A DNA stretch of 64,000 nt from NCBI RefSeq assembly GCF_002261185.1, contig NZ_NEVQ01000013.1, positions 310,001 through 374,000 on the forward strand. Direction: 5' to 3'. Of this stretch, positions 8,768 through 26,680 are shown one piece after another. A program made the translations under genes and the position numbers. This DNA is from Bordetella genomosp. 4. GTDB lineage: Bacteria; Pseudomonadota; Gammaproteobacteria; Burkholderiales; Burkholderiaceae_B. Each line of letters starts with the position of its first letter. Positions within the stretch are counted from its first letter, which is position 1. The notes beneath the pieces were generated by a model that was given only the letters and a program-made list of their open reading frames with translations, made no database searches and was not told the DNA's origin.

Positions 8768-8892
8768 TTTTTCTCCTGAGTCAGACCGGCTGATGAGCAC
8801 CCTGCCCAACCATGGGCGCACGGTGGTGCCCTTAATCCAACTGACGCAGGCCAGTGTATCGAGGCACAAGGCCCTATTCTGTATCGAAATCC

Positions 8893-8907
8893 TGTTGCAT
8901 TGCAACA
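8893..8907. promoter_or_regulatory. Perfect 15-base palindrome upstream of ferritin-like gene
   Basis: TGTTGCA-T-TGCAACA has perfect 7-bp arms around one base. It lies 126 bases upstream of the ferritin-like start and just after the epimerase stop. There is no T run on the minus strand after it, so an operator is more likely than a terminator. Confidence 0.4.
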
Positions 8908-8912
8908 AAAAT

Positions 8913-9908
8913 TCAAGCATTGGCCATAGATTTCGCGTACGCTGGCTCCTTTTGGGCCTCCGCCGCAAAATAGGCTACGGTGCGCGCGATACCTTCGGCC
9001 GGGCTGACTTTCGGATTCCATCCCAGGCACCGTTGCGCCAGCGAAATATCGGGGCACCGATGGGCCGGATCGTCTACCGGCAGATCCTGGTGCACCAGCG
9101 GGACTTGTGCACCCGTCGATGCCAATACAAGGTCCGCGATGTCCAGCATCGATAGTTCCACGGGGTTGCCCAGGTTGACGGGTTGCGAGATATTTTCCTG
9201 GCTTTCCATCAGCCGCACGAGACCGTCGATCAAATCATCGACATAACAGAGCGACCGCGTCTGAGTGCCATCACCGTAGATGGTCAGCGGCTTGCCCGCC
9301 AATGCCTGGCTGATGAAGTTGGACACTACCCGGCCATCATTTGGCGACATCTTGGGACCATAGGTATTGAAAATCCGCGCGATCCTGATCTCTACTCCCT
9401 CTCGATGTTCATATTCCATAAACAGCGTTTCGGCGCAGCGTTTTCCTTCGTCATAACAGGCCCGCGGCCCGACCGGATTCACATGTCCCCAATAGGCCTC
9501 GCGCTGCGGGTGCTGCAAGGGATCGCCGTACACCTCGCTTGTAGAAGCTTGCAAGACCCTTGCTCCCGTACGCCGGCCGAGTTCCAGCAACTGCATAGCC
9601 CCGAGCAAGCACGTCCGCAACGTCTTTATCGGATCGGCCTGATACTGCGCCGGCGAAGCCGGACACGCCAGGTTATAAATGCGCGTCACGCCCAGATCGC
9701 CCAGGGGCTCGACCACATCGTGACGCAGTACCGTAAACCGGGGATGATCGGCCAACGCAGCCAGATTGCCGGCACGCCCGGTCTGAAAGTTGTCCACGCA
9801 GATGACCTCCCACCCATCCACCAGTAATCGCGTGCAGAGATGAGATCCCAAAAAGCCCGCACCGCCCGCCACCAAAGCTCGACCCGTTTCTGTCATATCG
9901 TTTTTCAT
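8913..9908 (-). CDS. UDP-glucuronate decarboxylase-like NAD-dependent sugar epimerase/dehydratase
   Basis: The protein has 331 residues from the ATG at 9908, which overlaps the upstream stop by four bases (ATGA). It is an extended SDR: NAD-binding G15-x-x-G18-x-x-G21 in GGAGFLGSH, D39 after the second strand, ASTSEVYGDP at 121-130 and the catalytic Y152-x3-K156 in CYDEGKR. The segments NLACPASP, HPQ-x-E-x-YWG and RIFNTYGPKM are characteristic of UDP-glucuronate decarboxylase (UXS), which makes UDP-xylose with NAD+. UDP-xylose, or a keto-pentose intermediate, would then feed the glycosyltransferases of this operon. No UDP-glucose dehydrogenase is in the window, so UDP-glucuronate must come from elsewhere. 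Confidence 0.82.
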   Translation of the reverse strand: MKNDMTETGRALVAGGAGFLGSHLCTRLLVDGWEVICVDNFQTGRAGNLAALADHPRFTVLRHDVVEPLGDLGVTRIYNLACPASPAQYQADPIKTLRTCLLGAMQLLELGRRTGARVLQASTSEVYGDPLQHPQREAYWGHVNPVGPRACYDEGKRCAETLFMEYEHREGVEIRIARIFNTYGPKMSPNDGRVVSNFISQALAGKPLTIYGDGTQTRSLCYVDDLIDGLVRLMESQENISQPVNLGNPVELSMLDIADLVLASTGAQVPLVHQDLPVDDPAHRCPDISLAQRCLGWNPKVSPAEGIARTVAYFAAEAQKEPAYAKSMANA

Positions 9909-10876
9909 CTCTGCTCCATCACTGTATCGAATACGTTGAGCCAGTCGGCGATATAGCGTTCCATGCCAAACCGTTGCAGCGCCTTTTCCCGTGCCGCCCT
10001 GCCCCATTTGCGGGCCAATTCACGGTCGGCGATCAGTTCGCGAGCGACTTCGATCAGCCGCTCCAGCCGCGTATCAACATAGCCTTCTTTTCCATTGGTA
10101 ATCACCGTGGGCAGTTCCGTCGTGGCATACCCTAAGACGGGCAGGCCGCAGAACATCGCTTCGACGAGGGACAGTCCCAGACTGGCGTAGCGGATCGGAC
10201 TGAAGAAATAACGATAGCGGGCCATGTGCGCGGCGACTTGCAGGTTGGGGATTTCACCCAGACCGCCCAATGCCTCGGCGTCCATGCCGATCAATTCCAA
10301 GGGCGTATGCAAACGCATATGCTCGAAAATATCCCGCCCAATACGCCGTCCGCGCCGGGCCAGATGGTTGACGACGACGATGCCCTGCGCCAAGCTGCCG
10401 TCGTATGAGACCTGAGGGTCAGGCACTGCATGCTCGACGATCCTGACAGGCATGCCGCCACTGTTCCACATCACTGCATTGAAAGGCGTGACATGAACCA
10501 TCAGGCCCCGCGGATGCTGAAACGGATGCTGCGTGTCCGTAGGATGCGGCTCGGGCGGATTGTGTTCGAGATAGACGCTGGGCAGCGCACGCTGTTGATC
10601 GGTCAGCAAAAGACGGGCGTCTTCGATATTCTGCCGGGCCTGATACAGGATGCAGTCGAACTGCATGTGCCGCAACTGTTCCGCCGGCACCTGGGTGAGA
10701 TTGCTGCCCCAGGGAATCCGATTGCCCAGCGCGCCGTATCCTGGCATCGCGTGGTCCAGGCCCGGCACCACGAAATCGTGAGGCACATGATGCAGTGCGT
10801 AGAGATAATTGCCATGGACATGCCATGTCAGGATACGCAGACGGCGGCCGGGCTCGCGATCAAAGGCGGTTCTCAT
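9905..10876 (-). CDS. Glycosyltransferase, GT-B fold (GT1/GT4-like)
   Basis: The protein has 323 residues from the ATG at 10876, coupled by ATGA to the upstream GT9 gene. The C-terminal half carries a Rossmann donor-binding domain with SLGLSLVEAMFCGLPVLGY, the E-x-M-x-C-G type motif of retaining GT-B enzymes, then VITNGKEGYVDT and a typical C-terminal helix. The N-terminal half (RILTWHVHGNYLYALHHV) is less conserved. It probably adds one sugar to the glycan built by this operon, in the cytoplasm; donor and acceptor are unknown. Its direct coupling to the UXS-like gene makes a pentose donor plausible but unproven. Confidence 0.75.
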   Translation of the reverse strand: MRTAFDREPGRRLRILTWHVHGNYLYALHHVPHDFVVPGLDHAMPGYGALGNRIPWGSNLTQVPAEQLRHMQFDCILYQARQNIEDARLLLTDQQRALPSVYLEHNPPEPHPTDTQHPFQHPRGLMVHVTPFNAVMWNSGGMPVRIVEHAVPDPQVSYDGSLAQGIVVVNHLARRGRRIGRDIFEHMRLHTPLELIGMDAEALGGLGEIPNLQVAAHMARYRYFFSPIRYASLGLSLVEAMFCGLPVLGYATTELPTVITNGKEGYVDTRLERLIEVARELIADRELARKWGRAAREKALQRFGMERYIADWLNVFDTVMEQR

Positions 10877-11946
10877 CCTGTCACCCTCTCGTGCGCATAG
10901 AGTTGATCCCGCGCCGCTGCCAACACCTCGGGCGCTGTCACCTGCAGCGCACAGGGGTGTCCAATCGGACACACTGGATGCGCGCAAGGACGGCACGGCA
11001 CATCTGCCGACAGCACACGGTGCCGTCTGCGGTTCAGCGGCGCCCAGCGGCGCGTGTCGCTACCGCAGGCCACCACGACACTAGGCGCCTGCATCGCGGC
11101 TGCGACATGGGATATCCCCGTATCGTTGCAAACCAGCAAGCGGCTCGCTCGCACCAGCGCCGCCAGGCTGCCCAGGTTCGTCAGGCCCGACAGATCGGTC
11201 AAAGGGACTTGAGCGAGCTGCTGCAGCTCTGTGGTCATTGCGCTTTCGCCAGTGGTCCCGGTCAATGCGATTTGCCAACCATCTTGATGCAAGCCTCGCG
11301 CGAGGTCCGCGAAACGCGCCAACGGCCACCGGCGCGAGGCCAGGCGAGCCCCCACATGGATGAGTACGAGTCTGCGAGGATCCAGGTCCCATTGACGCAT
11401 CAGTTCTATGGCGTCTCGCTCATCCGCATGAGAACACGGGAACTCCAGGTGTTCATCGTGTACATTTTCCAAGCCCGCAAAACGCAGCAGCGCCAGATAC
11501 CGCAGCACCTCTGGCAGATGGTCTGGCCATGCCAGGCGAGCACCGGGGACTTCCTCGCTGGCATCCGGCACAAAGCCAGCCCATTGCCGCGCGCCGAATT
11601 GGCGCACCACCTCGTTAGACTGACGCCCGCTGCCGTGCAGTTGCAATGCGACATCGGGTTGCCACGCCCGGATGCGATCAAAGAACTCCGGTAGTGCTGC
11701 CTCATCGGGCTTTTGTTCCGGAAAGGCAGGATCCCCGGGGAATGGTGTCAATTCATCCACATAGGCATGGAATCTATCGACGAACTCCCGTGCCCCTGGC
11801 AACCCGGCCAAGACAATCTGAGCGCGCGGAAAGGCCTGCCGCACCGCCCTGAACGCAGGCACCGCGCACAACATATCACCCAGCTGCAGCGCACGGAATA
11901 CGATGATGCGATGCGGGGGATGCTGGGGGTCAAGTACCGCAGTCAT
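10873..11946 (-). CDS. Glycosyltransferase family 9 (heptosyltransferase-like), second copy
   Basis: The protein has 357 residues; the ATG at 11946 overlaps the GT2 stop by four bases. GT9 features are the N-terminal IIVFRALQLGDMLCAVPAF, the donor site IHVGARLASRRWP and VCNDTGISHVAAAMQAP. Near the C-terminus a cysteine cluster CRPCAHPVCPIGHPC is present, as in many GT9 enzymes. Family members transfer ADP-heptose or related sugars to lipid A core or other glycans. Another GT9 lies in the same operon (14659-15774). The two are divergent, suggesting two distinct linkages and not a recent duplication. Confidence 0.83.
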   Translation of the reverse strand: MTAVLDPQHPPHRIIVFRALQLGDMLCAVPAFRAVRQAFPRAQIVLAGLPGAREFVDRFHAYVDELTPFPGDPAFPEQKPDEAALPEFFDRIRAWQPDVALQLHGSGRQSNEVVRQFGARQWAGFVPDASEEVPGARLAWPDHLPEVLRYLALLRFAGLENVHDEHLEFPCSHADERDAIELMRQWDLDPRRLVLIHVGARLASRRWPLARFADLARGLHQDGWQIALTGTTGESAMTTELQQLAQVPLTDLSGLTNLGSLAALVRASRLLVCNDTGISHVAAAMQAPSVVVACGSDTRRWAPLNRRRHRVLSADVPCRPCAHPVCPIGHPCALQVTAPEVLAAARDQLYAHERVTG

Positions 11947-12935
11947 ATTGCCGCCCTCTGGAATCGCACGAGTCCCACTACGCGCCATAGAATGGACAGC
12001 AAGGGGATGCAGACCGATGTAATCATCAAGTCGGCGACAGTCTGCACCGAGCGGCGCGTACCGCGAAGCCGGCGCACAAAGAAGATGATGGTCAGCATCA
12101 ACCAGATCCCCGCAGCCGCGCCCGCCCACAGATACTGTCCAGCGATCGCCAAGACGATCGCCGCGAGAAACGATGCAGTCACATACAAATAAAAGGTGGG
12201 CCAACGGCTGCGGATATGCTTGCGATATAAGAACGGATACTTCCGCCGCAACAACATATCGAACATTACCTTTTTCTGCATTCCCAGCCCCGCCGCAAAC
12301 GGAAAGGGCCTCACGGGATGCAGCACGCGCGCCAAGGGCGCCGCCTGAACCGAGAACCCACGATCCAGGAGCGCAAAATGCAAGTCGGAGTCTTCTCGCC
12401 ATGCCATGGTATAGCGCGTGTCAAAGCCGCCGACCGCTTCTAATGCTGAGCGGCGGACAAAGCAGTTGGCAGTGATAAAGGCCGAGCGAGTCAACCCAGC
12501 GGCATCGCGTTCATAATCGCTGGGAGGATCGGGCAACGGCATTTCCGTGACGCCTGTGACGGCCGCAACGCTTGCAGTCATCGCCTGTACCCCCTGCCCC
12601 AACCAGTCAGGCGCCGGGATCGTGTCATCGTCCGTGAATGCGATGATGCCGCCACGTGCATTGCGCCAGCCCATATTGCGTGCGCCCGCGGGGCCTTTGG
12701 TGCCCGTCACGGCAAGATAGCGCACGGCGGGCCGGTCATGCTGGGCCTGCTGCCATTTACCGACCTGCCGGCGCGTGGCGTCGCTGCGCCCGTCGTCGCA
12801 GACGATGATCTCATAGCTGTCACGAGGAAAATGCTGATTGGCCAATGCCTGCAAACACCGCTCCAGCAGATCCGGACGGTGATACGTCGGCACAATCACC
12901 GACACCAGAATGGCAGGTGCAGTCGTTGCGGTCAT
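11943..12935 (-). CDS. Glycosyltransferase family 2 with C-terminal membrane segments
   Basis: The protein has 330 residues; the start at 12935 is coupled by ATGA to the carbamoyltransferase. The GT-A core has VSVIVPTYHRPDLLERCL, EIIVCDDGRSD and the metal-binding FTDDDTIPAPDW, with a GPAGARNMGW donor-loop motif. Residues from about 240 on contain two or three hydrophobic helices (YLYVTASFLAAIVLAIAG and a further pair), so it is anchored on the inner face of the cytoplasmic membrane. It likely extends a lipid-linked acceptor. Sugar specificity cannot be read. Confidence 0.82.
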   Translation of the reverse strand: MTATTAPAILVSVIVPTYHRPDLLERCLQALANQHFPRDSYEIIVCDDGRSDATRRQVGKWQQAQHDRPAVRYLAVTGTKGPAGARNMGWRNARGGIIAFTDDDTIPAPDWLGQGVQAMTASVAAVTGVTEMPLPDPPSDYERDAAGLTRSAFITANCFVRRSALEAVGGFDTRYTMAWREDSDLHFALLDRGFSVQAAPLARVLHPVRPFPFAAGLGMQKKVMFDMLLRRKYPFLYRKHIRSRWPTFYLYVTASFLAAIVLAIAGQYLWAGAAAGIWLMLTIIFFVRRLRGTRRSVQTVADLMITSVCIPLLSILWRVVGLVRFQRAAI

Positions 12936-14671
12936 CGCGGTTTCTCAACGAGATAAGATCCAATCACCAATGCATCCAGTGGCGACGTCCAGAAAGACTC
13001 CAGTGCGTCGCGCGGGCTGCACACCACAGGCTCGCCACGCGTGTTGAATGAGGTGTTGACCAGAACAGGCACGCCGGTACGCTTTTCAAATGCGGCCAGC
13101 AGGTCGTAATAGCGCGCGTTCTGATCCCGTCTCACCGTTTGTACGCGAGCGGTTCCATCTATATGCCTCACCGCGGGAATCTGTTTCGCACGATGCGGCA
13201 ATACGTCATAGACAAACAACATGAATGGCGCGCAGATCGACGCCGCGCCGCGGCCGTCGAACCAGGCTGTGGCGCGTTCCTCCATCACCACCGGCGCGAC
13301 GGGCCTGAAGTCTTCACGGTCTTTCAGGCCGTTCAAGCGTGCCTGCATCGCGCTGTCCAACGGCGACGCCAGGATCGATCTGGCGCCCAACGCGCGCGGG
13401 CCGAACTCCATGCGCCCCTGAAACCATCCCAGTATTTTTTCTTGGGCCAGCAGCTCTGCGGCCTCCTCCGCCACATCGTCCAGCTTGCGAAATGCCAATC
13501 TCGATTGATAGAGGAACCGCTCGATTTCCTCGTCCGTATAGTCGGGGCCCAGGTAGGCATGGTCCATGACCCATTCACGGGGACCGCCACGGCGCTGATA
13601 ATCCACATATAGCGCCGCGCCCAACGCCGTCCCCGCGTCGCCCGCAGCGGGCTGCACCCAGACTTGATCGAATTCCCCGTCCCGCGCGATACGCGCGTTC
13701 ATCACGCAGTTCAGCGCCACACCACCGGCCATGCACAGCCGCGACGATCCGGTTTGCTGGCGCAGCCAATGCGTCATGTGCAATGCGGTTTCTTCCAACA
13801 CATACTGCAAGGAACTGGCGATGTCCTTGTGCCGTTCATCGAACGGTTCGCCGCGATGGCGTGGAGGACCGAATCGCTCGGCCAGCTTTGCGGGATGCAG
13901 AGCATAGCCCCCCTCGTCCTCGAGGCTCAGGATCTCGCGAAACTCCTTGCGATACGTCGGTTTCCCGAACGATGCGAGGGCCATCACTTTGTATTCGTCG
14001 GACGAATGCAGAAAGCCCAGGTACCGGGTGACTTCCTCATACAGCAGGCCGAGTGAATGCGGCAGATCGATTTGTTTGATGCGGTGATATTCGCCCTGCG
14101 AAAAATGGCCGAAACTCGTCGTCGTGCGTTCGCCTCGGCCGTCCATGGTCAACACCGCAGCCTCGTCAAAGGGCGCGGCTAGAAACGCACTCGCTTCGTG
14201 CGACAAATGATGGTCCAGATTGACCCACCGGTCTCTGATATGGTCCAGTGTCAGGCCGTCCAGCCGCGGCGACCTGAGGTGATGCGGCACGCCATCGAGC
14301 AGTTGCCGCGGGGCATTGACCAGGTACGATATGAACAACGGATCCCACGGCGATTCGCCGTTAGGTCCAAAGCCCGCCTTCGATGGTTCGAGCGGCAGCA
14401 CAACATTCGGCTCGGCATTGCCCGCCGGCATCAGCAGCTTTGGGTCGTAGGCGTACGCAATATGATCGACCTGTCCCAGATGAGCGCCGGCCTGCGCCAG
14501 ACAATAGTCGATCGCGTGATACGGCAACTGCCACGCCGTAAACGGCACGGGCCGTTTGCCATGCTTTATCCGGGTAAAGCGCTCTTCTTCCGCGGCGGCC
14601 AACACCTGGCCGTCTCGCACCAGTGCCGCGGCGCAATCGTGATAAGCGGCATTGATTCCTAGGGTAAGCAT
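12932..14671 (-). CDS. NodU/CmcH-family carbamoyltransferase
   Basis: The protein has 579 residues from the ATG at 14671, preceded by GAGGATGTCTC; it overlaps the upstream GT9 by 13 bases. The N-terminal ASKHA-fold domain begins GINAAYHDCAAAL and contains the metal-binding DHHLSHEASAFLAAPF with three conserved histidines, then LTMDGRGE. The C-terminal domain has MEFGPRALGARSILASP and VNTSFNTRGEPVV. The family transfers a carbamoyl group from carbamoyl phosphate, via carbamoyl-AMP, to a hydroxyl of a sugar or antibiotic (NodU, TobZ, CmcH). Here it probably decorates a sugar in the glycan assembled by the neighbouring glycosyltransferases. Confidence 0.9.
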   Translation of the reverse strand: MLTLGINAAYHDCAAALVRDGQVLAAAEEERFTRIKHGKRPVPFTAWQLPYHAIDYCLAQAGAHLGQVDHIAYAYDPKLLMPAGNAEPNVVLPLEPSKAGFGPNGESPWDPLFISYLVNAPRQLLDGVPHHLRSPRLDGLTLDHIRDRWVNLDHHLSHEASAFLAAPFDEAAVLTMDGRGERTTTSFGHFSQGEYHRIKQIDLPHSLGLLYEEVTRYLGFLHSSDEYKVMALASFGKPTYRKEFREILSLEDEGGYALHPAKLAERFGPPRHRGEPFDERHKDIASSLQYVLEETALHMTHWLRQQTGSSRLCMAGGVALNCVMNARIARDGEFDQVWVQPAAGDAGTALGAALYVDYQRRGGPREWVMDHAYLGPDYTDEEIERFLYQSRLAFRKLDDVAEEAAELLAQEKILGWFQGRMEFGPRALGARSILASPLDSAMQARLNGLKDREDFRPVAPVVMEERATAWFDGRGAASICAPFMLFVYDVLPHRAKQIPAVRHIDGTARVQTVRRDQNARYYDLLAAFEKRTGVPVLVNTSFNTRGEPVVCSPRDALESFWTSPLDALVIGSYLVEKPR

Positions 14672-15774
14672 GAGACATCCTCCGCGTGAAGTGAAACGAC
14701 GCTGTCGTCGCGCCCGTGCTGCAGCAACTCCCGTGCCGCGGCTGTGACACGGCGTGGATCCACGCCTGCGAGACAAGCATGATGGCCTTGTTCGCAAACA
14801 CTGCGATAGCAGTACTTGCAGGGCACATCGTGATAAAGGACGCGCGAGGCGGTTTGCCACGGCGTGTGTTGTGGATTGGTCAGGGCATAGAGATCCACAA
14901 TCGGGGTCTGCAAAGCGGCAGCAATATGCGCAGGGCCGCTGTTATTGCAGATCATCACTGCGGCCCCCTCCAGCGCGGCGCCTAATTCGCCCAAGCTCAG
15001 CTGACCGGACAGATCAATCAAACCTGGCAATAGCGCACGGTGATCGGCCAGTGCCTGGGATAATGCTAGATCCTCATGGCCGCCCAGCAGCAGTATGCGG
15101 CGCCCTTCTCCCCGCAGCCCGACCAAGGCCTGGACCATCAATGCCGCCGGATAACGGCGCGAGGCAGCGGTAGCGCCCGCATGTACGCAAATCCAACCTT
15201 CCGTTTCGCTCACGCCCAGATGCACGAGTTTGTGCTTGAGTGAAAGCCTATCGCCATCACGGACACGAAATGACAGCCGAGTCTCTGCGCTATGCGCGCC
15301 TACATGCGCGACGAGATCGAGTTGGCGTTGGACCTCGTGACGGATGCCGCTCTGAGGTTCGGTGTCACGTACCCAATCCGACAACAAGCGATAAGGGTTT
15401 TCGCGGCAATGAGCCAGTACGCTCGGTATGCCGGCCAGATGGCACATCAGCGCCGCGGGCAAGGCGCTCTGGCTGAAAGAGGTGAAGATCACCGCGGCGT
15501 CTGGGCGCAATGCGCGCAATCTGCCTATCATGTTGATATCGTCGTCTTGTCCGGACGAATTGTTTTTGACCCACGCAGGGTCATAGGCCAGCACCGTGTC
15601 GATCTCGGGAATATAGGGCGCCACGTGAGCGCCAGCGACGGAAGCCAGCAACGATATGCGCGAAGCGCCGGATTCGCGCAATGCGCGAATTGCCGGACTG
15701 CACATCAGCACATCGCCCATATTGTCCAAGCGCACGCATAAAACATGCCGTTTCGCAGCCCAATCCCACGCCAT
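14659..15774 (-). CDS. Glycosyltransferase family 9 (heptosyltransferase-like)
   Basis: The protein has 371 residues from the ATG at 15774, six bases after GAGGGAG; a TTG at 15780 is the alternative. Motifs are VLCVRLDNMGDVLMCSPAI at the N-terminus, VHAGATAASRRYP, and ICNNSGPAHIAAALQTP followed by LTNPQHTPWQ. A cysteine cluster CKYCYRSVCEQGHHAC near the C-terminus is shared with the operon's other GT9. It directly follows a GmhB-like phosphatase gene, so an ADP-heptose-type donor is plausible. No hldE or gmhA is present here, so heptose precursors would come from the core LPS pathway. Confidence 0.85.
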   Translation of the reverse strand: MAWDWAAKRHVLCVRLDNMGDVLMCSPAIRALRESGASRISLLASVAGAHVAPYIPEIDTVLAYDPAWVKNNSSGQDDDINMIGRLRALRPDAAVIFTSFSQSALPAALMCHLAGIPSVLAHCRENPYRLLSDWVRDTEPQSGIRHEVQRQLDLVAHVGAHSAETRLSFRVRDGDRLSLKHKLVHLGVSETEGWICVHAGATAASRRYPAALMVQALVGLRGEGRRILLLGGHEDLALSQALADHRALLPGLIDLSGQLSLGELGAALEGAAVMICNNSGPAHIAAALQTPIVDLYALTNPQHTPWQTASRVLYHDVPCKYCYRSVCEQGHHACLAGVDPRRVTAAARELLQHGRDDSVVSLHAEDVSCLP

Positions 15775-15776
15775 GG

Positions 15777-16367
15777 TCAACTCCCTCGTGCCGCGGCGTC
15801 ATTGGCCATGGCGTTCAGTACCAGGCGAGCTGCCTCGTATAGGTCCGCGGCGCATCGATCGGGCTCGCGTTCCGGTGTCATGCGCCATTCGGTTTCGTGG
15901 CCCACGTCCAGCAAGACACTGCGGCACCCTGCCAGATGACCGGCTTGCACATCGTCGAGAATATCGCCGATGAACCACGATGCCTGCAGATCCAGGTCCA
16001 GCTCCCGTGCAGCCCGTAAAAGCAGGCCCGGCTGAGGCTTGCGGCACTCGCATTCGACGGCGTAATCCGGCAATATGCCCGCCGGGTCATGCGGGCACCA
16101 GTAAAAACCGTCAAGCCGCGCACCCGCTGCACGAAACATCTCGGCCAATTTGTGCTCGACTCGAATCAAGGCATCCGGGGAAAAGTATCCTCGGGCGACT
16201 CCCGCCTGATTGCTGATCACAACCAAGGGGAGATCGGCAGCCGCCAGACACGAGAGCGCCTGCGCGGCGCCCGGCGCGTAACTCATGAGATCCGGATCGA
16301 CGTTATAAGGCTCGTCAACCAGCAGTGTGCCGTCTTTATCCAGGAACACTGCGGGCCTCAGGGCCAT
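15777..16367 (-). CDS. gmhB: HAD-IIIA phosphatase, heptose-1,7-bisphosphate 7-phosphatase (GmhB) type
   Basis: The protein has 196 residues; the ATG at 16367 follows AAGGAAACATC. Motif I is FLDKDGTLLVD with D10 and D12. Next come VVISNQAGVARGYF and a zinc loop with cysteines in WCPHDPAG and CECRKP, then KPQPGLLLRAARELDL and motif IV GDILDDVQAGHLAGC. This matches GmhB/HisB-N enzymes, which dephosphorylate glycero-manno-heptose 1,7-bisphosphate before ADP-heptose formation. A paralogue dedicated to this operon's sugar is likely, since the core gmhB normally sits elsewhere. A different hexose or heptose bisphosphate cannot be excluded. Confidence 0.78.
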   Translation of the reverse strand: MALRPAVFLDKDGTLLVDEPYNVDPDLMSYAPGAAQALSCLAAADLPLVVISNQAGVARGYFSPDALIRVEHKLAEMFRAAGARLDGFYWCPHDPAGILPDYAVECECRKPQPGLLLRAARELDLDLQASWFIGDILDDVQAGHLAGCRSVLLDVGHETEWRMTPEREPDRCAADLYEAARLVLNAMANDAAARGS

Positions 16368-17089
16368 GATGTTTCCTTCATCGGCAACACCATGACTTCG
16401 GGCACGACGGTTTCCGGCGGCTGGGTCAAGATAAAGCGCACGGCACGTGCGACGTTGGCGGGATCCTGCAAGGTGCCGACGTCAATGTCTGGAAATCGAT
16501 CCAGCAGAAACGGCGTGCGCATGCCGCCCGCGATGACGGCGCTGACTTTCAGGCCTGCACCTCGCAGCTCCGCATGCAAGGCATGCGACAGACCCATCAG
16601 CCCCCATTTGCTGGCATGGTAGGCGCTGGCATTCGGCCAGGCTCGCCGGGCGGCCGTGGATGCGATATTCACAATGTGTCCGCCGGGACTCAACCGGTCC
16701 TTGCCCATTTTCGCCATCAGGAATGGGCCCGTCAGATTGGTGCGCAGCACTCTTTCCCACACGTCGGTATCCAGCGTGTCGATTGGCGCCGTCACGTCCA
16801 CACCGGCGCTATTGACGATGGCGTCCAGCTTGCCGAATTGACTGACCACGGCATCGAGTCCATTGCGCACATCCACCACCACGCCGACATCCATGCCGCA
16901 GGCCATGGCCTGGGCGCCGGTCTCCTTCAACTGCCCGGCCAGTTTCATTGCGCGTTGTTCGTCGATGTCCGCCACCGCGACACGGGCCCCTTCGGCCGCC
17001 AGCATCTGGCACAATGCCGCGCCCAGCCCGCTGCCACCGCCTGTCACCAGAATTGCGCGATCTTTCAGTGTTTCGAATTCATGCATCAT
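16358..17089 (-). CDS. Short-chain dehydrogenase/reductase
   Basis: The protein has 243 residues. The start at 17089 (tandem ATG codons) follows AAAGGAGCGAA, and the gene overlaps the phosphatase by 10 bases. It is a classical SDR: cofactor site TGGGSGLG (16-23), DI at 41-42 suggesting NAD(H) preference, NSAG at 93-96, and catalytic S144, Y157 and K161 in SAYHASKWG. It probably oxidises or reduces a sugar or sugar nucleotide for the glycan pathway. The reaction cannot be predicted from the motifs. Confidence 0.8.
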   Translation of the reverse strand: MMHEFETLKDRAILVTGGGSGLGAALCQMLAAEGARVAVADIDEQRAMKLAGQLKETGAQAMACGMDVGVVVDVRNGLDAVVSQFGKLDAIVNSAGVDVTAPIDTLDTDVWERVLRTNLTGPFLMAKMGKDRLSPGGHIVNIASTAARRAWPNASAYHASKWGLMGLSHALHAELRGAGLKVSAVIAGGMRTPFLLDRFPDIDVGTLQDPANVARAVRFILTQPPETVVPEVMVLPMKETSWP

Positions 17090-17098
17090 TTCGCTCCT

Positions 17099-18370
17099 TT
17101 ACGCCGCAATTTGAACGGCATGACGAGTGCGGCCGGTCTTGCCTGCTTCGAGGCGCTCATAGACCGACAGCAGATCCTGTCCCACGCGTTGCCATGTATA
17201 AAGCCGTCTGGCGCGCAATCGGCCCGCCTCGCCCATCCGTTCGCATAGTTCGGGATTCGAGGCCAGTTGCGCCAGGCGTTCGGCCAGCTTGTCGGGATTT
17301 TTAGGGGGAACCAGAAACCCGGTTTTTCCGTTCACGACGGTTGTGCGTATGCCCCCGGTATCGGCGCCAATCACGGGCCGGCCGCACGCCATGGCTTCGA
17401 CTGGCGTAATGCCAAACGGCTCATACCATGGTGTGGTCACAAACACGTCGCTGGCGCTGTAGTACGTTGCCAGTTGGTCGCGATTGCGGCGGCCGGTAAA
17501 TTGCACCAGCGAGGAGACGCCCTCTTCTGCTGCGATGCCGCGCAATCGTCCGATTTCAGGGGTTGCGGTTTCGTTTGCGTCTTCGGAGTTTCCGCCGACG
17601 ACCAGCAATTTCGCGTCGATGCCGTAGCGGTGGCGCAATCGTCCCAACGCCCGAATCACGTTGTCGACGCCTTTGCGCGGTACCATGCGTCCCAACTGCA
17701 GCAAGGTGAAAGTCCCCTCATCCCAGCCGAGTGCGGCGCGCGCGGCGGCTTTGGGTTGCGGTTTCATTTCCCCGGCATCGTAGCCGCAGGGCACGATGTC
17801 GATATGCGTGGGATCGGCCTCGTACAGCTCCATCAGGTCGCGCCGATCTTGCGGACATTCCGCGATGATGCAGTCAGCGTGACGGACGATTTCATCTTCG
17901 ATGTCAAATCGGCTATCAGGAAAACGGTCTGCTTCCTGCTGATAGCGGCGACGTACCTTGCCCAGTGCATGAAAAGTCACCACCATCGGCACGCCAAATC
18001 GTTGCGATACGGGTAATGCCGCCAACGCCGACATGAAAAAATTGGCATGAACGACATCGTAGCCACGGCGTTGCCGTGCGAAGTACCGTTGCAAAAAGGC
18101 GCTGAATTCGTCCATATACGGCAGCATTTGTTCCTTTGGCAGATAGCTCGCCGGCCCTGCCGGAACATGCACGATATTGACGCCGTCCATCCATTCCTGT
18201 TCTGTTGTCAGCAGTGGGTCATCCTTGCGCGTGAAAACATCGACTTGAAGCCCTGCGCGCGCCAGTTGACGGGCAACCTGCGCCACATAGATGTTCTGTC
18301 CGCCGCTATCGACGCCGCCTGCCAGCGCGAGCGGTGACGCATGCTCGCTGATGAGGGCAATCTTTCTCAT
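17099..18370 (-). CDS. Glycosyltransferase family 4
   Basis: The protein has 423 residues from the ATG at 18370, after GGAGCTTCATT; the frame is open much further upstream, into the space after the ABC fusion gene. N-terminal EHASPLALAGGVDSGGQNIY is the acceptor-side glycine-rich motif shared with sucrose-phosphate-synthase- and MshA-like GT4 enzymes. The donor side has LLQLGRMVPRKGVDNVIRA and YEPFGITPVEAMACGRPVIG, the E-x7-E motif of retaining GT-B enzymes. It is cytoplasmic or peripheral to the membrane. It is preceded by a 205-base gap with a strong hairpin, the largest spacing inside this operon. Confidence 0.85.
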   Translation of the reverse strand: MRKIALISEHASPLALAGGVDSGGQNIYVAQVARQLARAGLQVDVFTRKDDPLLTTEQEWMDGVNIVHVPAGPASYLPKEQMLPYMDEFSAFLQRYFARQRRGYDVVHANFFMSALAALPVSQRFGVPMVVTFHALGKVRRRYQQEADRFPDSRFDIEDEIVRHADCIIAECPQDRRDLMELYEADPTHIDIVPCGYDAGEMKPQPKAAARAALGWDEGTFTLLQLGRMVPRKGVDNVIRALGRLRHRYGIDAKLLVVGGNSEDANETATPEIGRLRGIAAEEGVSSLVQFTGRRNRDQLATYYSASDVFVTTPWYEPFGITPVEAMACGRPVIGADTGGIRTTVVNGKTGFLVPPKNPDKLAERLAQLASNPELCERMGEAGRLRARRLYTWQRVGQDLLSVYERLEAGKTGRTRHAVQIAA

Positions 18371-18499
18371 AATGAAGCTCCGTTTTCTAGCCAGCGCTCG
18401 ACGGGTGACGCACGCCGGTATCGCGTTTGAAGCAAGTGCTGTGCCGTTAAGGGGCGCATACGGCGATGTATGCCGGTGCAACAGGAAAGCCCGCGCGAT

Positions 18500-18575: not shown

Positions 18576-21308
18576 TCAGCCTTTGTCCTGGCCGCTACCG
18601 GCGTTTGCCGGCGCAGCGGGCAACAAGGCTCCCACCGTCGCCAGCAGTTCCTGGGTATTGACCGGTTTGGCCAAATGAATCTGGAACCCGGCCAGCAAGG
18701 TACGCAATCGGTATTCGGGCTCTGCAAACCCCGATAACGCAATGGCAGGCAGGCGATGCGCCAACGCCGCGCCTCGCTCGGCCTCCAGGGCTCGGATCCT
18801 GCCAATGACCTCGTAGCCATCCATCTCGCCCAGGGACAGGTCGCAGATCAGCACGTCGGGCCATTGATCCGCGGACATAGCCTTGAACGCAGCCAACGCC
18901 TGCTCGCCGTCGGCATATTCGGTCACCCGTGCGCCGTTGTCCCTCAGCACCTCGGCGATCATCTCGCGCGCCTCGTCCTGATCGTCCACCACGATTACTG
19001 ACACATTCTGCACATCGACACGTTGCGCATCCCGCCGTGTGACAGTGGGCTCAACGGCCCGAATCGGAAAATCCGCAGAGAACGTCACTCCGCCTACATC
19101 GGCTGCCGCGCTGTGAAAGACGCCGCCTTGGCGCTGGACCTGTGCAGCCAGCTGAGCCGGGTCCAGTGCCGCCGCGCGGCGCAGCGCTTCGGAACCATCC
19201 TGTCCCGTCGAGGACACGAGGTCCGAACGCCCATCGGTCACTGCCAGATGCGCCATGGGACCATTGCGTTGCAGCCGTATTTCGATGCGTCCGCCAGGTG
19301 GCGTGACCGCGATCGCATGCAGGCATAGATCCCATACCAACTGCTGCAAGGTACTGGGATCGCCACTGATCCGCGCCGCCTCGTTGCCGATGAGGGTATA
19401 CAGGTTTACGCCGCGCTCTGCCGCGACCTCCCGTATCGCATCCAATACCCCTGCCACAACTGCCACCAGATTCACGGGCTGTCGGGTCTGGCGGTCCTGG
19501 GCTTCCTCCAGCTCGGACTGCTGGCGCTGCAACGCCCACATTTGCGCGTACATGCCCTGCTGCGCCAAGAGGTCCTTATGCTGGCCCTGTTCGATGACGC
19601 GGCCTCGATCCAGCACCACGATGTTGTCCGCGTGCACTATCGTCGACAGGCGATGCGCGATGATCAGCGTGGTACGGCCGCGCGACAGGCGTTCCAGCTC
19701 GGCTTGTATCGCGCGCTCGGTGCGCGTGTCCAGCGCCGATGTCGCCTCGTCAAAGACCATGATGGAGGGATTCTTGAGGATCGCTCTGGCGATGGCGATG
19801 CGCTGACGCTCGCCGCCGGACAGTTTGATGCCGCGTTCGCCGACCGGCGTCTCGTAGCCGCCGGGCAAACTCTCGATGAACTCATGCACCCGAGCGCCAC
19901 GCGCCGCCTGGACGATCTGATCGCGTGTCGCACCGGGTTGACTGTAGGCGATGTTGTAGGCGATGGTTTCGTTAAACAACACCGTATCCTGCGGCACGAT
20001 ACCGAGAGCTTTGCGAATACTGCGTACGTTGACTGTACGCAGGTCCTGGCCATTGACGCGCACGCTGCCTTCGCTGGGATCGTAAAAACGGAACAACAAG
20101 CGTGCCAATGTGGATTTGCCCGATCCGCTGCCGCCGACCACCGCCAGCGTCGTTCCCGCGGGAACCGTCAGATCGATATCCCACAAGATCTGGCGCCCGG
20201 CCTCGTAGCCGAAATTGATTTTCTCAAATCGGATTTCTCCCATGCCGGGATCCAGATCCGGCAGCGTCGCATCGTCGCCCGTTTCCGTGGGCTTGCGCAA
20301 CAGATCGCAGACCCGCTCGGCATTCACGAAAGCCTCTTTGGCTTGGCGAAAGATCAAGCCCAGCGTATTCAAGGGCAGGCAGATCTGAATGATGTATGCG
20401 TTGACCAATACCAGATCGCCGACTGTCATCCGCGCGTCCACGACCTGCTCGCCGGCCAACAACATGACGGTCGCCACGCCGCAGGCGATGATGGCGCTCT
20501 GCCCTACATGCAGCCGCGACAGGGATGCTTGATTGCGTATCCCCACATCAACCCATGATCCCAGCACATGGCTCAATCGCCGGGATTCCAGCCCCTCGTT
20601 CGCGTTGAGTTTGACGGCCTCGTAATTCAAAAGACTATCGACAATCCGGCCGCTGGCGCGTGAGTCCAGGTCATTCATATGGCGCTGGTAGACCACCCTT
20701 TTACGCACCATGATCACGGTATAAACAAAGTAGGCCGAGAACGTGGCGGCCAGGACCAGCGCAAACCACGCGCTATAACCCATGACCAGAATCAACACCA
20801 CGGAAACCATTTCGACCAGCGTGGGCAACAGCGTAAAAAGCGCAGTACCGAGCAGAAACCCGATGCCGGCCGTGCCTCTTTCCACGTCGCGCGCCAGCTT
20901 GCCGGTCTGCCGCGTGCCGTGGAATCGCGCCCCTAAACGCTGCAGGTGATCGAACACCCTCAAAGTGAAATCGGCCACGGCCCGCTGCGCCACACGTACG
21001 AACACCACATCGCGCAATTCGGTGAACAGGCTACCGCCAAACCGGATCAACGCATAGCCCAATAGCAGAAACACAGGCAAAACCAGCAATCCGGGTTCGC
21101 TGAGCCTGTCCACGATGGACTTCAGCAGAAACGGGACCAGCACCATCAGCAATTTGGCTGCGACCAGCAGTGCGATTGCAGCCCCGGTCCTGCCCCGATG
21201 CTTCCACAACGCCTGCAAGATCGTGCGCGTGACCTCTTTGCGTGCAAAGCTGTCACCCGTGACGTCCTGATCCGATATGCCGGCGAATTCGTCTGTCTTA
21301 CCGTTCAT
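18576..21308 (-). CDS. Atm1-type ABC exporter fused to degenerate HATPase-like and receiver domains
   Basis: The protein has 910 residues from the ATG at 21308 (ATGA overlap with the GT2). Residues about 35-335 are a six-helix ABC exporter domain with Atm1/ABCB7 hallmarks (RQTGKLARDVERGTAGI, SLLNYEAVKLNANE). The nucleotide-binding domain (about 355-595) is complete: Walker A GGSGSGKST at 392-400, signature LSGGERQ at 496-502, Walker B VFDEATSALD and H552. Residues about 607-757 resemble a histidine-kinase ATPase domain (LQQLVWDLCLHAIAVTPPGG), but the N-box Asn is His and the G boxes and phospho-accepting His are missing. Residues about 768-898 form a receiver: D775/D776, phospho-acceptor D823, S859 and K881. 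It is an inner-membrane homodimer, perhaps exporting thiol compounds or flipping a lipid-linked glycan. No cognate kinase is nearby. Confidence 0.88.
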   Translation of the reverse strand: MNGKTDEFAGISDQDVTGDSFARKEVTRTILQALWKHRGRTGAAIALLVAAKLLMVLVPFLLKSIVDRLSEPGLLVLPVFLLLGYALIRFGGSLFTELRDVVFVRVAQRAVADFTLRVFDHLQRLGARFHGTRQTGKLARDVERGTAGIGFLLGTALFTLLPTLVEMVSVVLILVMGYSAWFALVLAATFSAYFVYTVIMVRKRVVYQRHMNDLDSRASGRIVDSLLNYEAVKLNANEGLESRRLSHVLGSWVDVGIRNQASLSRLHVGQSAIIACGVATVMLLAGEQVVDARMTVGDLVLVNAYIIQICLPLNTLGLIFRQAKEAFVNAERVCDLLRKPTETGDDATLPDLDPGMGEIRFEKINFGYEAGRQILWDIDLTVPAGTTLAVVGGSGSGKSTLARLLFRFYDPSEGSVRVNGQDLRTVNVRSIRKALGIVPQDTVLFNETIAYNIAYSQPGATRDQIVQAARGARVHEFIESLPGGYETPVGERGIKLSGGERQRIAIARAILKNPSIMVFDEATSALDTRTERAIQAELERLSRGRTTLIIAHRLSTIVHADNIVVLDRGRVIEQGQHKDLLAQQGMYAQMWALQRQQSELEEAQDRQTRQPVNLVAVVAGVLDAIREVAAERGVNLYTLIGNEAARISGDPSTLQQLVWDLCLHAIAVTPPGGRIEIRLQRNGPMAHLAVTDGRSDLVSSTGQDGSEALRRAAALDPAQLAAQVQRQGGVFHSAAADVGGVTFSADFPIRAVEPTVTRRDAQRVDVQNVSVIVVDDQDEAREMIAEVLRDNGARVTEYADGEQALAAFKAMSADQWPDVLICDLSLGEMDGYEVIGRIRALEAERGAALAHRLPAIALSGFAEPEYRLRTLLAGFQIHLAKPVNTQELLATVGALLPAAPANAGSGQDKG

Positions 21309-22228
21309 AGGCTGTGCACCGGTCCTTTGAGTCCAACGGTACGCGATCGCGATACCCGTTCGACCCGTGCACAAACAGAGGGATTCACGCACCGCCGGTG
21401 ACGCCATATCATGACGGTCCCTCTCAATACGTCTGTCAGCAGTTGCAGCCGGGCAGGTAGCGATGGCGTGTTCTTGAATTCCTCAATGCTGCAGCGTATG
21501 GCCATATGCACCGGCAGCCGCAGCCATGCTGTCCAGATACTGTTGCGCGTCATCAACCGGCGCCGCCGCACGTTATCCCGTAACGAAGACGGCCAATGAT
21601 GCGTCACGACGCTTGGCGCGTAGACGATGCACTGGCCCTGTTCCAGAATGTCCAACGCCAACAGGGTTTCCTCGCCGCCGATGAACAGCGGCGGCCAATA
21701 ACCGCCCGCGTCGCGGAACGCCGCGGTCCGCATGACACAGGCTCCTGCCATGAATCCGACCAGTTCCGGGCCGACATCGTCCACTTCGGCCAGCGGGCTG
21801 GCGGCCATGACCTCGCAGGCGGGATCTATCCGACCCTCGTTGCCGACCAGGATCTGCGCATTGAGTACGGCGATAAGCGGGTGCGCATCCAAAATTTCGG
21901 TGGCGGTGTCCAGCGCCGTCGGCGACCACGCGGTATCGTCGTCGCTAAACGCAACATACGGTGTACGCACGCGCTGCACCCCCAGGTTTCGGCCTGCCGC
22001 GCCCCGATTGGTCTGCGACACGACCAACTCGACATCGGGATATTCGTCGGCGATGCGCTGCGCGGTGCCGTCGGTGCTTGCGTTGTCCACCACAATAATC
22101 GGCGGCGGACCCGTTGCCGTAGACAGCTCCTTCAAGCGCGCGAGCGTTGCGCACACTTCGTTCTGGCGGTTGTAGGTCAGCAGAACGATCGACACGCGCG
22201 GCGTGACACGTTGATCGGAAGCGATCAT
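21305..22228 (-). CDS. Glycosyltransferase family 2
   Basis: The protein has 307 residues; the ATG at 22228 overlaps the PIG-L stop by four bases. The GT-A core shows VSIVLLTYNRQNEVCATL, IIVVDNASTDGTA, NRGAAGRNLGV and the metal site FSDDDTAWSP, then GACVMRTAAFRDAGGYWP and GGEETLLALDIL, a typical acceptor/base region. There are no clear transmembrane helices, unlike the operon's other GT2. It probably adds an early sugar, since it is encoded next to the deacetylase that often acts on a GlcNAc-type unit. Donor unknown. Confidence 0.83.
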   Translation of the reverse strand: MIASDQRVTPRVSIVLLTYNRQNEVCATLARLKELSTATGPPPIIVVDNASTDGTAQRIADEYPDVELVVSQTNRGAAGRNLGVQRVRTPYVAFSDDDTAWSPTALDTATEILDAHPLIAVLNAQILVGNEGRIDPACEVMAASPLAEVDDVGPELVGFMAGACVMRTAAFRDAGGYWPPLFIGGEETLLALDILEQGQCIVYAPSVVTHHWPSSLRDNVRRRRLMTRNSIWTAWLRLPVHMAIRCSIEEFKNTPSLPARLQLLTDVLRGTVMIWRHRRCVNPSVCARVERVSRSRTVGLKGPVHSL

Positions 22229-22911
22229 GGTCCGTCTCCCGATGGCGTCAATCGCCAATAGCCCTCGGGGCGCGCCAGATCGTCCGGACAGGCGCCAAAG
22301 CCTCGCAGCTGGCTGCCATACGCGCACACCGCCCGGGATTTACGGTCCGAGCGACATGGTGTGGGCACCCGCGATGTCTCTATGCCCCGCTGGCGAATCA
22401 CAGACAGCCGTTGCGGCACGGCGTCAGGGCGTGCACGATAAGGCACGTCTTCATATGCCATCCAGACGGCACCTGGAAACAGGTACAACAACGATAGCAA
22501 TATGTCCGATACGCGGATGTGATCCTCGTGAAACAACCCTAACGGCATCACAACCTGACGAGGATGCAGCCGCGCGAGCGCATTCTTCAGCGACTCGCGC
22601 AGCAAAGGAATAAAGGGCTGCCAATTGTGCACGTATTGGCTATCCGGCAGGCCCAGCTCCACGCCGTCGCTGCCCAGCAGCCTCAGCGCTTCGCGGTTTT
22701 CCTCCAGACGACCCTTCAGCGCGGCCCGGGCAGTCGGAAATCCGCAGCGCTGATCCCACGAGGTCAAGCGCGCGGGATCCTCCGGCAATCCCGTGCACAC
22801 CGTAATGACCGTACTCAGGCGACTGCGGGCCAAGAGATCTCCGCAGCTGAACACTCCATCGTCCAGATGCGGAGACACCACGACGAGTGCATTCCTTTCA
22901 CGCGTCAGCAT
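22225..22911 (-). CDS. PIG-L/LmbE-family deacetylase
   Basis: The protein has 228 residues. Zinc-binding motif SPHLDD (residues 13-18) lies at the end of the first strand, and the second histidine motif FHEDH is further on; together they give the family's His-Asp-His site. PIG-L/LmbE enzymes remove N-acetyl groups from GlcNAc-linked substrates (GPI precursor, mycothiol and bacillithiol precursors, or glycan intermediates). As the first gene of the coupled run, it may deacetylate an amino sugar of the operon's product. Together with the GT4 it recalls mycothiol-type chemistry, but no cysteine ligase (MshC/BshC) is present. Confidence 0.83.
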   Translation of the reverse strand: MLTRERNALVVVSPHLDDGVFSCGDLLARSRLSTVITVCTGLPEDPARLTSWDQRCGFPTARAALKGRLEENREALRLLGSDGVELGLPDSQYVHNWQPFIPLLRESLKNALARLHPRQVVMPLGLFHEDHIRVSDILLSLLYLFPGAVWMAYEDVPYRARPDAVPQRLSVIRQRGIETSRVPTPCRSDRKSRAVCAYGSQLRGFGACPDDLARPEGYWRLTPSGDGP

Positions 22912-22952
22912 GCTTTTCTACCACCATGAGGGAACGGCCAGAGACTTCCCGT

Positions 22953-23513
22953 CTACTGTTTTGCCGGCGCCACGGTTTGCTGCAGCTTGCGAGCCTCCTC
23001 GAGATGATGCTTCAGGCTAGGCAGCGTTTCTGTCGCGAACTGTTTGACGTCGGGGTCTTGCGCTTCGCTGGAAGCTTTCTCGAACAGCTTCACGGCGTCC
23101 TCATGAGCCGAAACACCGATCTCTTTCGCGTAGGCTTCGTCAAAGCTGTCGTCACGTACATCCAACATCTTGAGCTTGGCCTTTTGCATCATTGAAGGGT
23201 CGCTCGGGATTTCATATCCCTTGCTCTTGGCCAGCTCGGACAACTTCTGAGCGACCTTGGTATGCTCGTCGATCATCTTTTGCGCAAAGGCCTTGACGTC
23301 GGCGTGACGTCCCTTTTCCAGCGCGACTTTGCTCGCCTGAATTTCCAACGCGCCGGAGTGGGCGGCATCATTCAAAAATTCCCGATCGGTACTGTCCAAC
23401 TTGGTGACGGGTTGACTAGGCTGTGGCGTGGTGGGCGCCTGTGCGGCACTGACACCCATCATGCCCAAGGTCAATACGACGGCCAGACCACTGTTTACAA
23501 AGCGATTCATCAT
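22953..23513 (-). CDS. DUF4142 periplasmic four-helix protein
   Basis: The protein has 186 residues; tandem ATG codons at 23513 follow GGAGATAAGC. Residues 1-26 are a Sec signal ending SAAQA. The mature part shows the DUF4142 pattern: TDREFLNDAAHSGALEIQAS, a helix with VKAFAQKMIDEHTKV, AYAKEIGVSAHEDAVKLFEK and LPSLKHHLEEARKL. The histidines in DEHTK, SAHED and LKHHL resemble ferritin-like metal positions. The family is periplasmic, often linked to stress genes, and of unknown biochemical role. It lies 41 bases upstream of the PIG-L gene on the same strand and may be the first gene of the glycan operon. Confidence 0.85.
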   Translation of the reverse strand: MMNRFVNSGLAVVLTLGMMGVSAAQAPTTPQPSQPVTKLDSTDREFLNDAAHSGALEIQASKVALEKGRHADVKAFAQKMIDEHTKVAQKLSELAKSKGYEIPSDPSMMQKAKLKMLDVRDDSFDEAYAKEIGVSAHEDAVKLFEKASSEAQDPDVKQFATETLPSLKHHLEEARKLQQTVAPAKQ

Positions 23514-23707
23514 GCTTATCTCCTGATGTGCGCGGCACATATTCCGCGGCGGCGCCGCGAGGGCGTGGCGCCTGTCTGCCCATCAGCAAGTCGCATGCCG
23601 CATACGCCCCTGTCCCGCAGCGGCGATCGCGCGTTTTCAAGCCCTTTTTGAACCACTCTGGGTATTCAGTGTTGCCGCCCTCGGCGCCTTCAAAAGACGG
23701 CAATGTG

Positions 23708-23734
23708 TTGTTTTATTGAAGTTTTTGCTAATAT
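23708..23734 (+). promoter_or_regulatory. Candidate promoter of the barrel-protein gene
   Basis: TTGTTT (23708-23713) and TAATAT (23729-23734), 15 bases apart, lie in an AT-rich patch 38 bases before the ATG at 23773. The spacing is short and the -35 box imperfect, so this is tentative. It argues against the in-frame TTG start at 23716. Confidence 0.3.
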
Positions 23735-23772
23735 CGCAACACTTTTTGTTTCTTTTGGGTTGGCCTCCACCT

Positions 23773-24960: not shown

Positions 24961-25030
24961 CGGACAAGTCGGACTGACGCTCGCATCCGGAACAGGCACT
25001 ACGTTGCAGGACAACCGAATAGGGATTCGT

Positions 25031-26605: not shown

Positions 26606-26680
26606 CCGCGATGAGCAGAGTCATTGAACGGCGTCAGCTGGCGCACTAACCGCGGGCGTTCTTTCCCGCAGGAGATAGCT

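Follow-up and report, generated by a model that had tools for sequence, protein, structure and literature searches.

A receiver domain as the proposed regulator of an Atm1-derived ABC exporter encoded beside a glycan operon in Burkholderiales

A stretch of 64,000 nucleotides from Bordetella genomosp. 4 (assembly GCF_002261185.1, contig NZ_NEVQ01000013.1, positions 310,001 to 374,000; hereafter the window) encodes an ATP-binding cassette (ABC) exporter whose C-terminus continues into a degenerate catalytic and ATP-binding (CA) domain of the histidine kinase type and a two-component receiver (REC) domain. We refer to this protein and its relatives as ABC-REC. The architecture, conservation and ancestry of the exporter, its partnership with a set of glycan genes, a change in its substrate pocket and the loss of its kinase boxes were computed. 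The novelty that these data suggest lies in the receiver, which would regulate an ABC exporter of Atm1 descent. Judged from sequence, the best reading, to which we give somewhat better than even chances, is that ABC-REC is a phosphorylation-gated exporter of the glycan made by the neighbouring operon, the gating being the part that we infer.

The gene and the approximate domain limits of its product are as follows.

18576..21308, minus strand: ABC-CA-REC exporter of 910 amino acids (aa), one open frame from 21308 to 18576
Residues about 40-340: transmembrane domain (TMD)
Residues about 357-595: nucleotide-binding domain (NBD)
Residues about 606-755: degenerate HATPase/CA domain
Residues about 770-893: receiver

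Pfam searches revealed ABC_membrane at residues 43-310 (9e-29), ABC_tran at 377-524 (9.9e-34) and Response_reg at 771-892 (1.8e-19), together with a weak match to HATPase_c at 649-692 (0.0072, below the cut-off); HisKA gave no Pfam match in the window exporter. The region between the NBD and the receiver was judged by profile comparison, in which 27 family sequences matched the CA regions of eight hybrid kinases with a probability of 99.8% over 152 columns. Because of this agreement between profiles, the segment is identified as a diverged CA domain, and the kinase-like domain is real. It directly follows the C-terminal helix of the NBD, without a dimerization and histidine phosphotransfer (DHp) domain between them. 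All five canonical receiver residues (D775, D776, D823, S859 and K881) are present in the window protein. An earlier note on this DNA, made from the sequence alone, had described a single uninterrupted ABC-HATPase-like-receiver frame with a complete receiver, and both points hold.

A frameshift or an assembly join between the ABC part and the receiver, which that note had named as a refuting finding, is ruled out, since the fusion recurs across genomes. The family search used an alignment (A1) of 18 rows, from which L021 (cut by a contig end) and the near-duplicates L025 and L026 had been dropped. In the family of the window, 41 of 268 genomes matched A1 at E <= 1e-290; 40 of the matches extended into the receiver, and the 41st (G024) stops at a contig end. 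In the order sample of 399 genomes, seven contained the fusion up to and including the receiver. A broad spread of ABC-REC is rejected, as the single match among 274 genomes of the class-level sample (E <= 1e-285) was the window's own genome. A scan of genome contigs with generic ABC patterns yielded 80 loci, of which L033 was the only full-length relative, the other 79 matching essentially the ABC part. A phage or mobile origin was also considered; no relative was found in a scan of viral contigs. ABC-REC covering at least 80% of the query was present on seven plasmid records (Burkholderia, Paraburkholderia, Caballeronia and Cupriavidus), and the carbamoyltransferase of the glycan operon described below was present on nine. 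These nine include the seven just mentioned and a Burkholderia cenocepacia record (NZ_CP091014.1, H8), in which the ABC-REC match covers residues 23-707 only, in two pieces. One further frame, of 895 aa in G596 (L168:6811-9498), is missing about 40 positions of the model (415-455) from its NBD and is possibly an inactive exporter.

Residue conservation was counted over 27 family sequences, with L021 and L168 (internal gap, fetched later) left out. The NBD motifs are kept in 27/27 (Walker A Lys, Q-loop, signature S and G, Walker B D and E, and H-loop). In the receiver, the phospho-Asp D823 and S/T859 are invariant (27/27 each), while D775 and K881 are found in 26/27 and D776 in 25/27. L017 carries D776G, and L136 (G514), a natural variant, has A, R and R at D775, D776 and K881 and retains D823. 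In the kinase-like part, the G1 (DxGxG) and G2 (GxGLG) boxes, present in 8/8 hybrid kinases (a count that excludes a ninth row labelled as a kinase, L132_9538, itself an ABC-REC protein), are missing in 27/27 family members. The sole invariant His within residues 575-769 is H577, which lies inside the NBD, and no conserved phospho-acceptor His was found in this interval outside the NBD. Thus, the degeneration of the HATPase claimed in the earlier note stands for the G boxes and the acceptor His; the claimed loss of the N-box Asn applies to the window protein, which has H664 at this position, and does not extend to the whole family, 10 of whose 27 members retain the Asn. Because the G1 and G2 boxes and a conserved acceptor His are absent, the exporter looks, from its sequence, like a phospho-acceptor that is unable to phosphorylate itself. 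The ratio of nonsynonymous to synonymous substitution rates (dN/dS) stayed below 0.5 wherever it was computable in six pairs of relatives compared domain by domain (two values of the window pair were not, because synonymous change was saturated), and for the receiver it ranged from 0.11 to 0.43 in 6/6 pairs.

Trees bear out the Atm1/ABCB7 ancestry proposed earlier. In a tree of 50 rows, a single clade (support 100/100) unites the ABC parts, and a long stem connects it to the Atm1-type rows; the long-branched L066 and L059 had been dropped from this last tree, and it included no MsbA row or other ABCB families. The identity of the exporter to 18 Atm1-like rows was 42-55%. Besides 23 ABC-REC rows, the clade includes three receiver-less exporters (G174, G269 and G383), and the branch joining the ABC-REC rows has a support of 81/61 only. 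The sequences indicate that there was probably a single fusion after the split from these sisters, the receiver being added later, because the receiver-less sisters sit among similar genes and have the same pocket; the receiver could instead have been lost in the three sisters. The sisters (L154 and L160, a duplicate and a partial sequence, were left out of this test) adjoin similar glycan genes, with no carbamoyltransferase found in the 18 kb around them. The CA and REC parts of the exporter share about 25-32% identity with hybrid kinases, and in a quick tree of CA-REC modules those of ABC-REC group together, apart from the eight kinases. This tree points to no single kinase as the donor of CA-REC.

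Another important feature of the clade is its substrate pocket. PDB chain 7n58_A (ABCB25), which we take to be AtAtm3, as the numbering fits, was aligned with the window protein by phmmer; the alignment was gapless in the pocket region, with an offset of 120. Eight conserved residues of the AtAtm3 glutathione pocket are given in the accessible part of PMC9000953: T317, R324, R328, N387, Q390, L433, G437 and R441. As far as that list goes, six of the eight are kept in the window protein, while R328 is replaced by Q208 and N387 by H267, so that it departs from the Atm1 glutathione pocket at these two positions. Q208 was found in 27/27 and H267 in 25/27 family members. At positions 208/267/329, 19 of the 23 ABC-REC rows have QHN (the others have QNN in two cases, QHS in one and QHA in one), as do 3/3 receiver-less sisters, whereas 26/26 other Atm1-type rows have RND. 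Since the sisters share QHN, the pocket change tracks the glycan partnership and not the receiver. Because two of the eight pocket residues are replaced, glutathione is probably not the substrate, on the evidence of the pocket sequence. Of the two cargoes proposed in the earlier note, a glutathione-type compound is therefore disfavoured by the pocket, and a glycan is favoured by the operon and by co-occurrence.

The operon in question lies around the exporter gene. Gene counts refer to the loci of 20 relatives; the Pfam domains of the glycan genes are above cut-off and the specific NCBIfam models below it.

22953..23540, minus strand: DUF4142 protein (Pfam 2e-42; 3/20 loci)
22225..22911, minus strand: PIG-L family de-N-acetylase (PF02585, 2.5e-9; 9/20 loci)
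21305..22225, minus strand: GT2 glycosyltransferase b (Pfam Glycos_transf_2, 1.6e-18; best matches in 8/20 loci)
17099..18370, minus strand: GT4 glycosyltransferase a, MshA/sucrose-phosphate-synthase-like (Pfam; 8/20 loci; start set by homology)
16358..17089, minus strand: SDR oxidoreductase (12/20 loci)
15777..16367, minus strand: HAD phosphatase, GmhB-like, of the heptose bisphosphate phosphatase type (HAD Pfam above cut-off, GmhB models below; 14/20 loci)
14659..15780, minus strand: GT9 heptosyltransferase-type glycosyltransferase a (PF01075, 8e-21; 14/20 loci)
12932..14671, minus strand: NodU/WapO-type carbamoyltransferase (PF16861, 1.2e-69, and PF02543, 6.4e-62; 16/20 loci)
11943..12935, minus strand: GT2 glycosyltransferase a (Pfam 1.5e-28; 13/20 loci)
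10873..12000, minus strand: GT9 heptosyltransferase-type glycosyltransferase b (PF01075, 1.7e-28; 14/20 loci)
9905..10996, minus strand: GT4 glycosyltransferase b (PF00534, 7.4e-12; 13/20 loci)
8913..10007, minus strand: NAD-dependent epimerase/decarboxylase (PF01370; 7/20 loci)

GT4 a, whose NCBIfam MshA score is below the cut-off, is the first gene of the glycan operon. The end of GT2 b overlaps the start of the exporter by four bases (its true start is not fixed, the listed open reading frame (ORF) reaching 22327), and the two genes are probably in the same operon, of which the DUF4142 gene, judged by spacing, is possibly the first. The start of GT9 b is likewise not fixed, the listed ORF extending to 12402, and in L017 the same ORF is that of the GT9 a match. 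Relatives of the epimerase/decarboxylase are annotated as UDP-glucuronic acid decarboxylase. Most of the 16 loci with the carbamoyltransferase hold most of the other glycan genes too, and L014, L016, L018 and L021 (11-20 kb) contain none of them. Annotated records of Paraburkholderia, Caballeronia and Burkholderia multivorans also show the glycan gene set.

The association was assessed by a census of the 268 family genomes. ABC-REC was present in 41 and the carbamoyltransferase in 47, and all 41 were among the 47; that is, the carbamoyltransferase occurred in 41/41 carriers versus 6/227 other genomes (Fisher 2.5e-42). Since related genomes are not independent, the count by genus is safer, and it gave 15/15 versus 4/28 (Fisher 2.6e-8). 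At the level of the order, the carbamoyltransferase was found in 7/7 carriers versus 3/392 others. The two genes lie at most 10 kb apart in 32 of the 41 carriers; in G025, G010, G588 and G589 both are on one contig, separated by 0.17-2.1 Mb, and in G024, G028, G595, G598 and G621 they are on different contigs. Of the six apparent non-carriers with a carbamoyltransferase, G596 does have ABC-REC, the frame with the internal gap mentioned above. Thus, both by linkage and by co-occurrence, the exporter belongs with the glycan operon.

A comparable set of genes is found in the Pseudomonas cluster for the core of lipopolysaccharide (LPS), which, according to the accessible part of PMC8005017, contains heptosyltransferases, WapO, a PIG-L protein and a lipid A-core transporter, and in which WapO is a putative carbamoyltransferase of the core heptose. 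Because of this analogy, the cargo of ABC-REC may be an oligosaccharide or glycolipid from the adjacent operon that is carbamoylated and probably contains heptose, and the protein would be its exporter or an inner-membrane flippase. The best NCBIfam score of the window exporter is for MsbA (393.3 bits), one of the ABCB flippases of lipid-linked glycans; this is, however, far under the 602-bit cut-off, and the exporter groups with the Atm1 rows in the tree, in which MsbA had no row. With the Atm1/ABCB7-type transporters (NaAtm1, AtAtm3 and ABCB7) it shares the half-transporter organization of TMD and NBD, the intact NBD motifs and the six pocket residues, and it differs from them in the equivalents of R328Q and N387H, in the CA-REC module and in its glycan-operon setting.

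The signalling neighbourhood was surveyed in 48 sequences (the window and 47 loci, a few of them overlapping and many only 4-20 kb long). In seven of them, hybrid kinases ending in CA-REC are encoded close to ABC-REC or the operon (L009, L011, L012, L131, L132, L134 and L136; the domains of three neighbouring hybrid kinases were checked), and NtrC-type regulators are so placed in 16 (L011, L023-L027, L121, L126-L130, L132, L139, L140 and L142; L144 overlaps L132 in this count). The cognate kinase that the earlier note proposed to look for thus has candidates in part of the relatives. A single NtrC match in genome G000 reached E <= 1e-90 (66% identity), and it belongs to a unit of a GAF-PAS-HisKA-HATPase-REC kinase (151357-153459), RpoN and NtrC (G000:C16:151357-156659, equal to L148:5357-10659). 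As a side observation, L009 encodes, near ABC-REC, a CheB-CheR-PAS-HisKA-HATPase-REC fusion of 1360 aa by Pfam (20826-24908), and L012 a protein 67% identical to it (11206-15309); apart from self matches, the exporter C-terminus finds some of its better matches at the ends of both fusions.

Two sigma-54-like sites lie close to the genes considered here.

18431..18446, minus strand: sigma-54-like -24/-12 site with one mismatch, about 60 bases before the start of GT4 a
23585..23600, minus strand: weak sigma-54-like site with two mismatches, before DUF4142, not significant alone

Sites with up to one mismatch were present within 200 bases before GT4 a in 8/26 loci versus 13/294 control ORFs (p 6e-5, or about 8e-4 after 13 tests), the strongest enrichment of the 13 genes tested; the carbamoyltransferase (4/37) and GT2 b (4/24) came next, and no such sites were found before Uxs, GT9 a, GT9 b, GmhB, ABC-REC or DUF4142. 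In all, the 55 sequences scanned, overlaps included, contained 109 sigma-54-like sites versus 22-38 in five crude shuffles.

From these elements the following scheme can be proposed, in which we infer the substrate chemistry, the donor kinase, the gating and its direction. An Atm1-type half-transporter with a remodelled substrate pocket would later have acquired, probably in one event, the CA and receiver parts of a hybrid histidine kinase. Like the hybrid kinases (HisKA-HATPase-REC), the exporter has a CA domain that aligns over its full length by profile and a matching CA plus REC; unlike them, it lacks HisKA/DHp and the G1 and G2 boxes, an ABC transporter occupying the position of the sensor and DHp. 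The CA domain would then have lost its ATP-binding boxes, so the phosphate would arrive in trans at D823, and the domain itself may serve as a coupler hung on the C-terminal helix of the NBD. Phosphorylation of the receiver would change the pairing of the two CA-REC arms in the homodimer, and the altered pairing would free or clamp the NBDs, as C-terminal domains do in MetNI and ModABC. As to direction, we favour activation by phosphate, in which phosphorylation would release arms that hold the NBDs apart. The donor is likely a hybrid kinase of the NtrC/sigma-54 system that accompanies the glycan operon, and one signal would therefore set both synthesis and export. We give about an even chance to the scheme as a whole, which makes the ABC exporter the output of a two-component system: its own receiver would be phosphorylated by a hybrid kinase, export of a carbamoylated heptose glycan would thereby be switched directly, alongside sigma-54/NtrC control over the synthesis of that glycan, and the dead CA would act as the coupler.

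We know of no ABC transporter with a two-component receiver among the regulated ones. Regulatory domains as such are familiar: according to the accessible part of a 2023 review of transporter regulation (PMC10710835), they are attached to the ABC transporters MetNI, ModABC and OpuA, and in MetNI the C-terminal domains pair and hold the NBDs apart, with a similar arrangement in ModABC. Ycf1 and CFTR with their R-domains, and Rv1747 with its FHA domain, are alike in having a regulatory domain or phospho-regulation on an ABC transporter, as far as the source text available to us describes them. The main text of PMC10710835 contains no occurrence of receiver, response regulator or histidine kinase. 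With response regulators of non-DNA output, ABC-REC has a canonical phosphorylatable receiver in common, and here the output would be an ABC exporter; the output-domain table of an Azospirillum survey (PMC4618731), in its accessible part, names no transporter, and leaves some outputs unclassified. In the accessible open-licence literature, neither a transporter with its own receiver nor a published family of the same architecture, which the earlier note had named as a refuting finding, was found described.

Several results weigh against the proposed phosphorylation-gated export. No kinase was found within the window, and a genome-wide HATPase search lists none there; a hybrid kinase was not seen in 41 of the 48 sequences searched, many of which are short (4-20 kb); and the kinase unit of G000, whose partnership with the exporter we only presume, lies about 172 kb away. 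Sigma-54-like sites are not enriched before ABC-REC (0/28 with up to one mismatch; 5/28 versus 42/294 with up to two), and their total in the window is at chance (46 versus 42 expected). The L136 and L017 variants indicate that receiver phosphorylation is not essential everywhere, and export itself does not require the receiver, since the sisters go with a similar operon. Among the sister genomes, the carbamoyltransferase (E <= 1e-200) was found in G174, on another contig, and in neither G269 nor G383. Moreover, ABC-REC was not found in five carbamoyltransferase genomes of the family (G472, G574 and G613, at least 94% complete; G537, 86%; G622, 70%), nor, at order level, in the carbamoyltransferase genomes G093 and G257. 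As the Atm1-type genes read in four of these (G472, G574, G093 and G257) have the ordinary RND pocket, the glycan can evidently be made without ABC-REC. Finally, the ABC-REC genomes G000, G005 and G007 have no ordinary Atm1 gene (about 50% identity) among the matches listed, which makes a retained thiol role conceivable; G002, G003, G006 and G008 carry both genes.

The strongest alternative, although we regard it as unlikely, is that the receiver is a scaffold, localisation tag or phosphate sink, which would bring the exporter to a kinase, the pole or the glycan machinery without gating it. It is supported by a receiver dN above the NBD dN in 6/6 pairs, by the absence of the acidic pair and the Lys in one member (L136) and by the same-clade exporters without a receiver, but the retention of D823 and S/T859 in all 27 sequences points to phosphoryl chemistry, and a mere tag needs neither residue. 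Sensor-transporters such as BceAB and CbrA show that links from a transporter to signalling exist, and since some loci have kinases and NtrC-type regulators close to the gene or operon, the flow might be reversed, the exporter sensing flux or substrate and signalling through CA-REC to the kinase/NtrC system. We consider this quite improbable, because the fused kinase part has neither a G1 nor a G2 box nor an acceptor His, and because receivers normally serve as input sites. That ABC-REC is still an Atm1-type exporter of glutathione or a thiol compound, merely co-located with the glycan operon, fits the six conserved pocket residues, the three genomes without a listed ordinary Atm1 gene and the occurrence of the glycan operon without ABC-REC; we nevertheless give this little credence, since R328Q is universal and N387H almost universal in the clade, neither being seen in the 26 other Atm1-type rows, since all 41 carriers have the carbamoyltransferase even when it is not adjacent, and since similar glycan genes surround the receiver-less sisters. 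The loss of the G1 and G2 boxes in 27/27 would also suit a functionless passenger of a gene fusion, an explanation that the maintenance of the fusion across genomes of the window's family and of Burkholderiaceae, the dN/dS below 0.5 where computable and the invariant phospho-Asp make very improbable indeed.

The surroundings of the cluster include further genes. A ferritin-like gene (8216-8968) and the DUF4142 gene (22953-23540) stand at its opposite ends, and in relatives BON, DUF883, DUF421 or hemerythrin genes are close by, which suggests that the cluster lies in a stress island. A link to the low-oxygen lxa locus of Burkholderia, prompted by the BON, alcohol dehydrogenase and stress neighbours, was dropped, as the accessible part of PMC6127331 names no such gene. 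The window also contains tandem genes (25004-26605 and 26624-27868) that match the Pfam family Beta-lactamase (PF00144), a family that also includes esterases and peptidases.

The glycan operon represents a pathway of Burkholderiales for which a limited literature search returned no description, and the sister exporters with and without a receiver, set among similar operons, constitute a natural experiment. Two-component systems act on transcription, second messengers and chemotaxis. If the phosphorylation-gated exporter proposed here is real, direct control of an exporter by its receiver would add a new class of output to these, and would provide a fast post-translational switch for envelope glycans.

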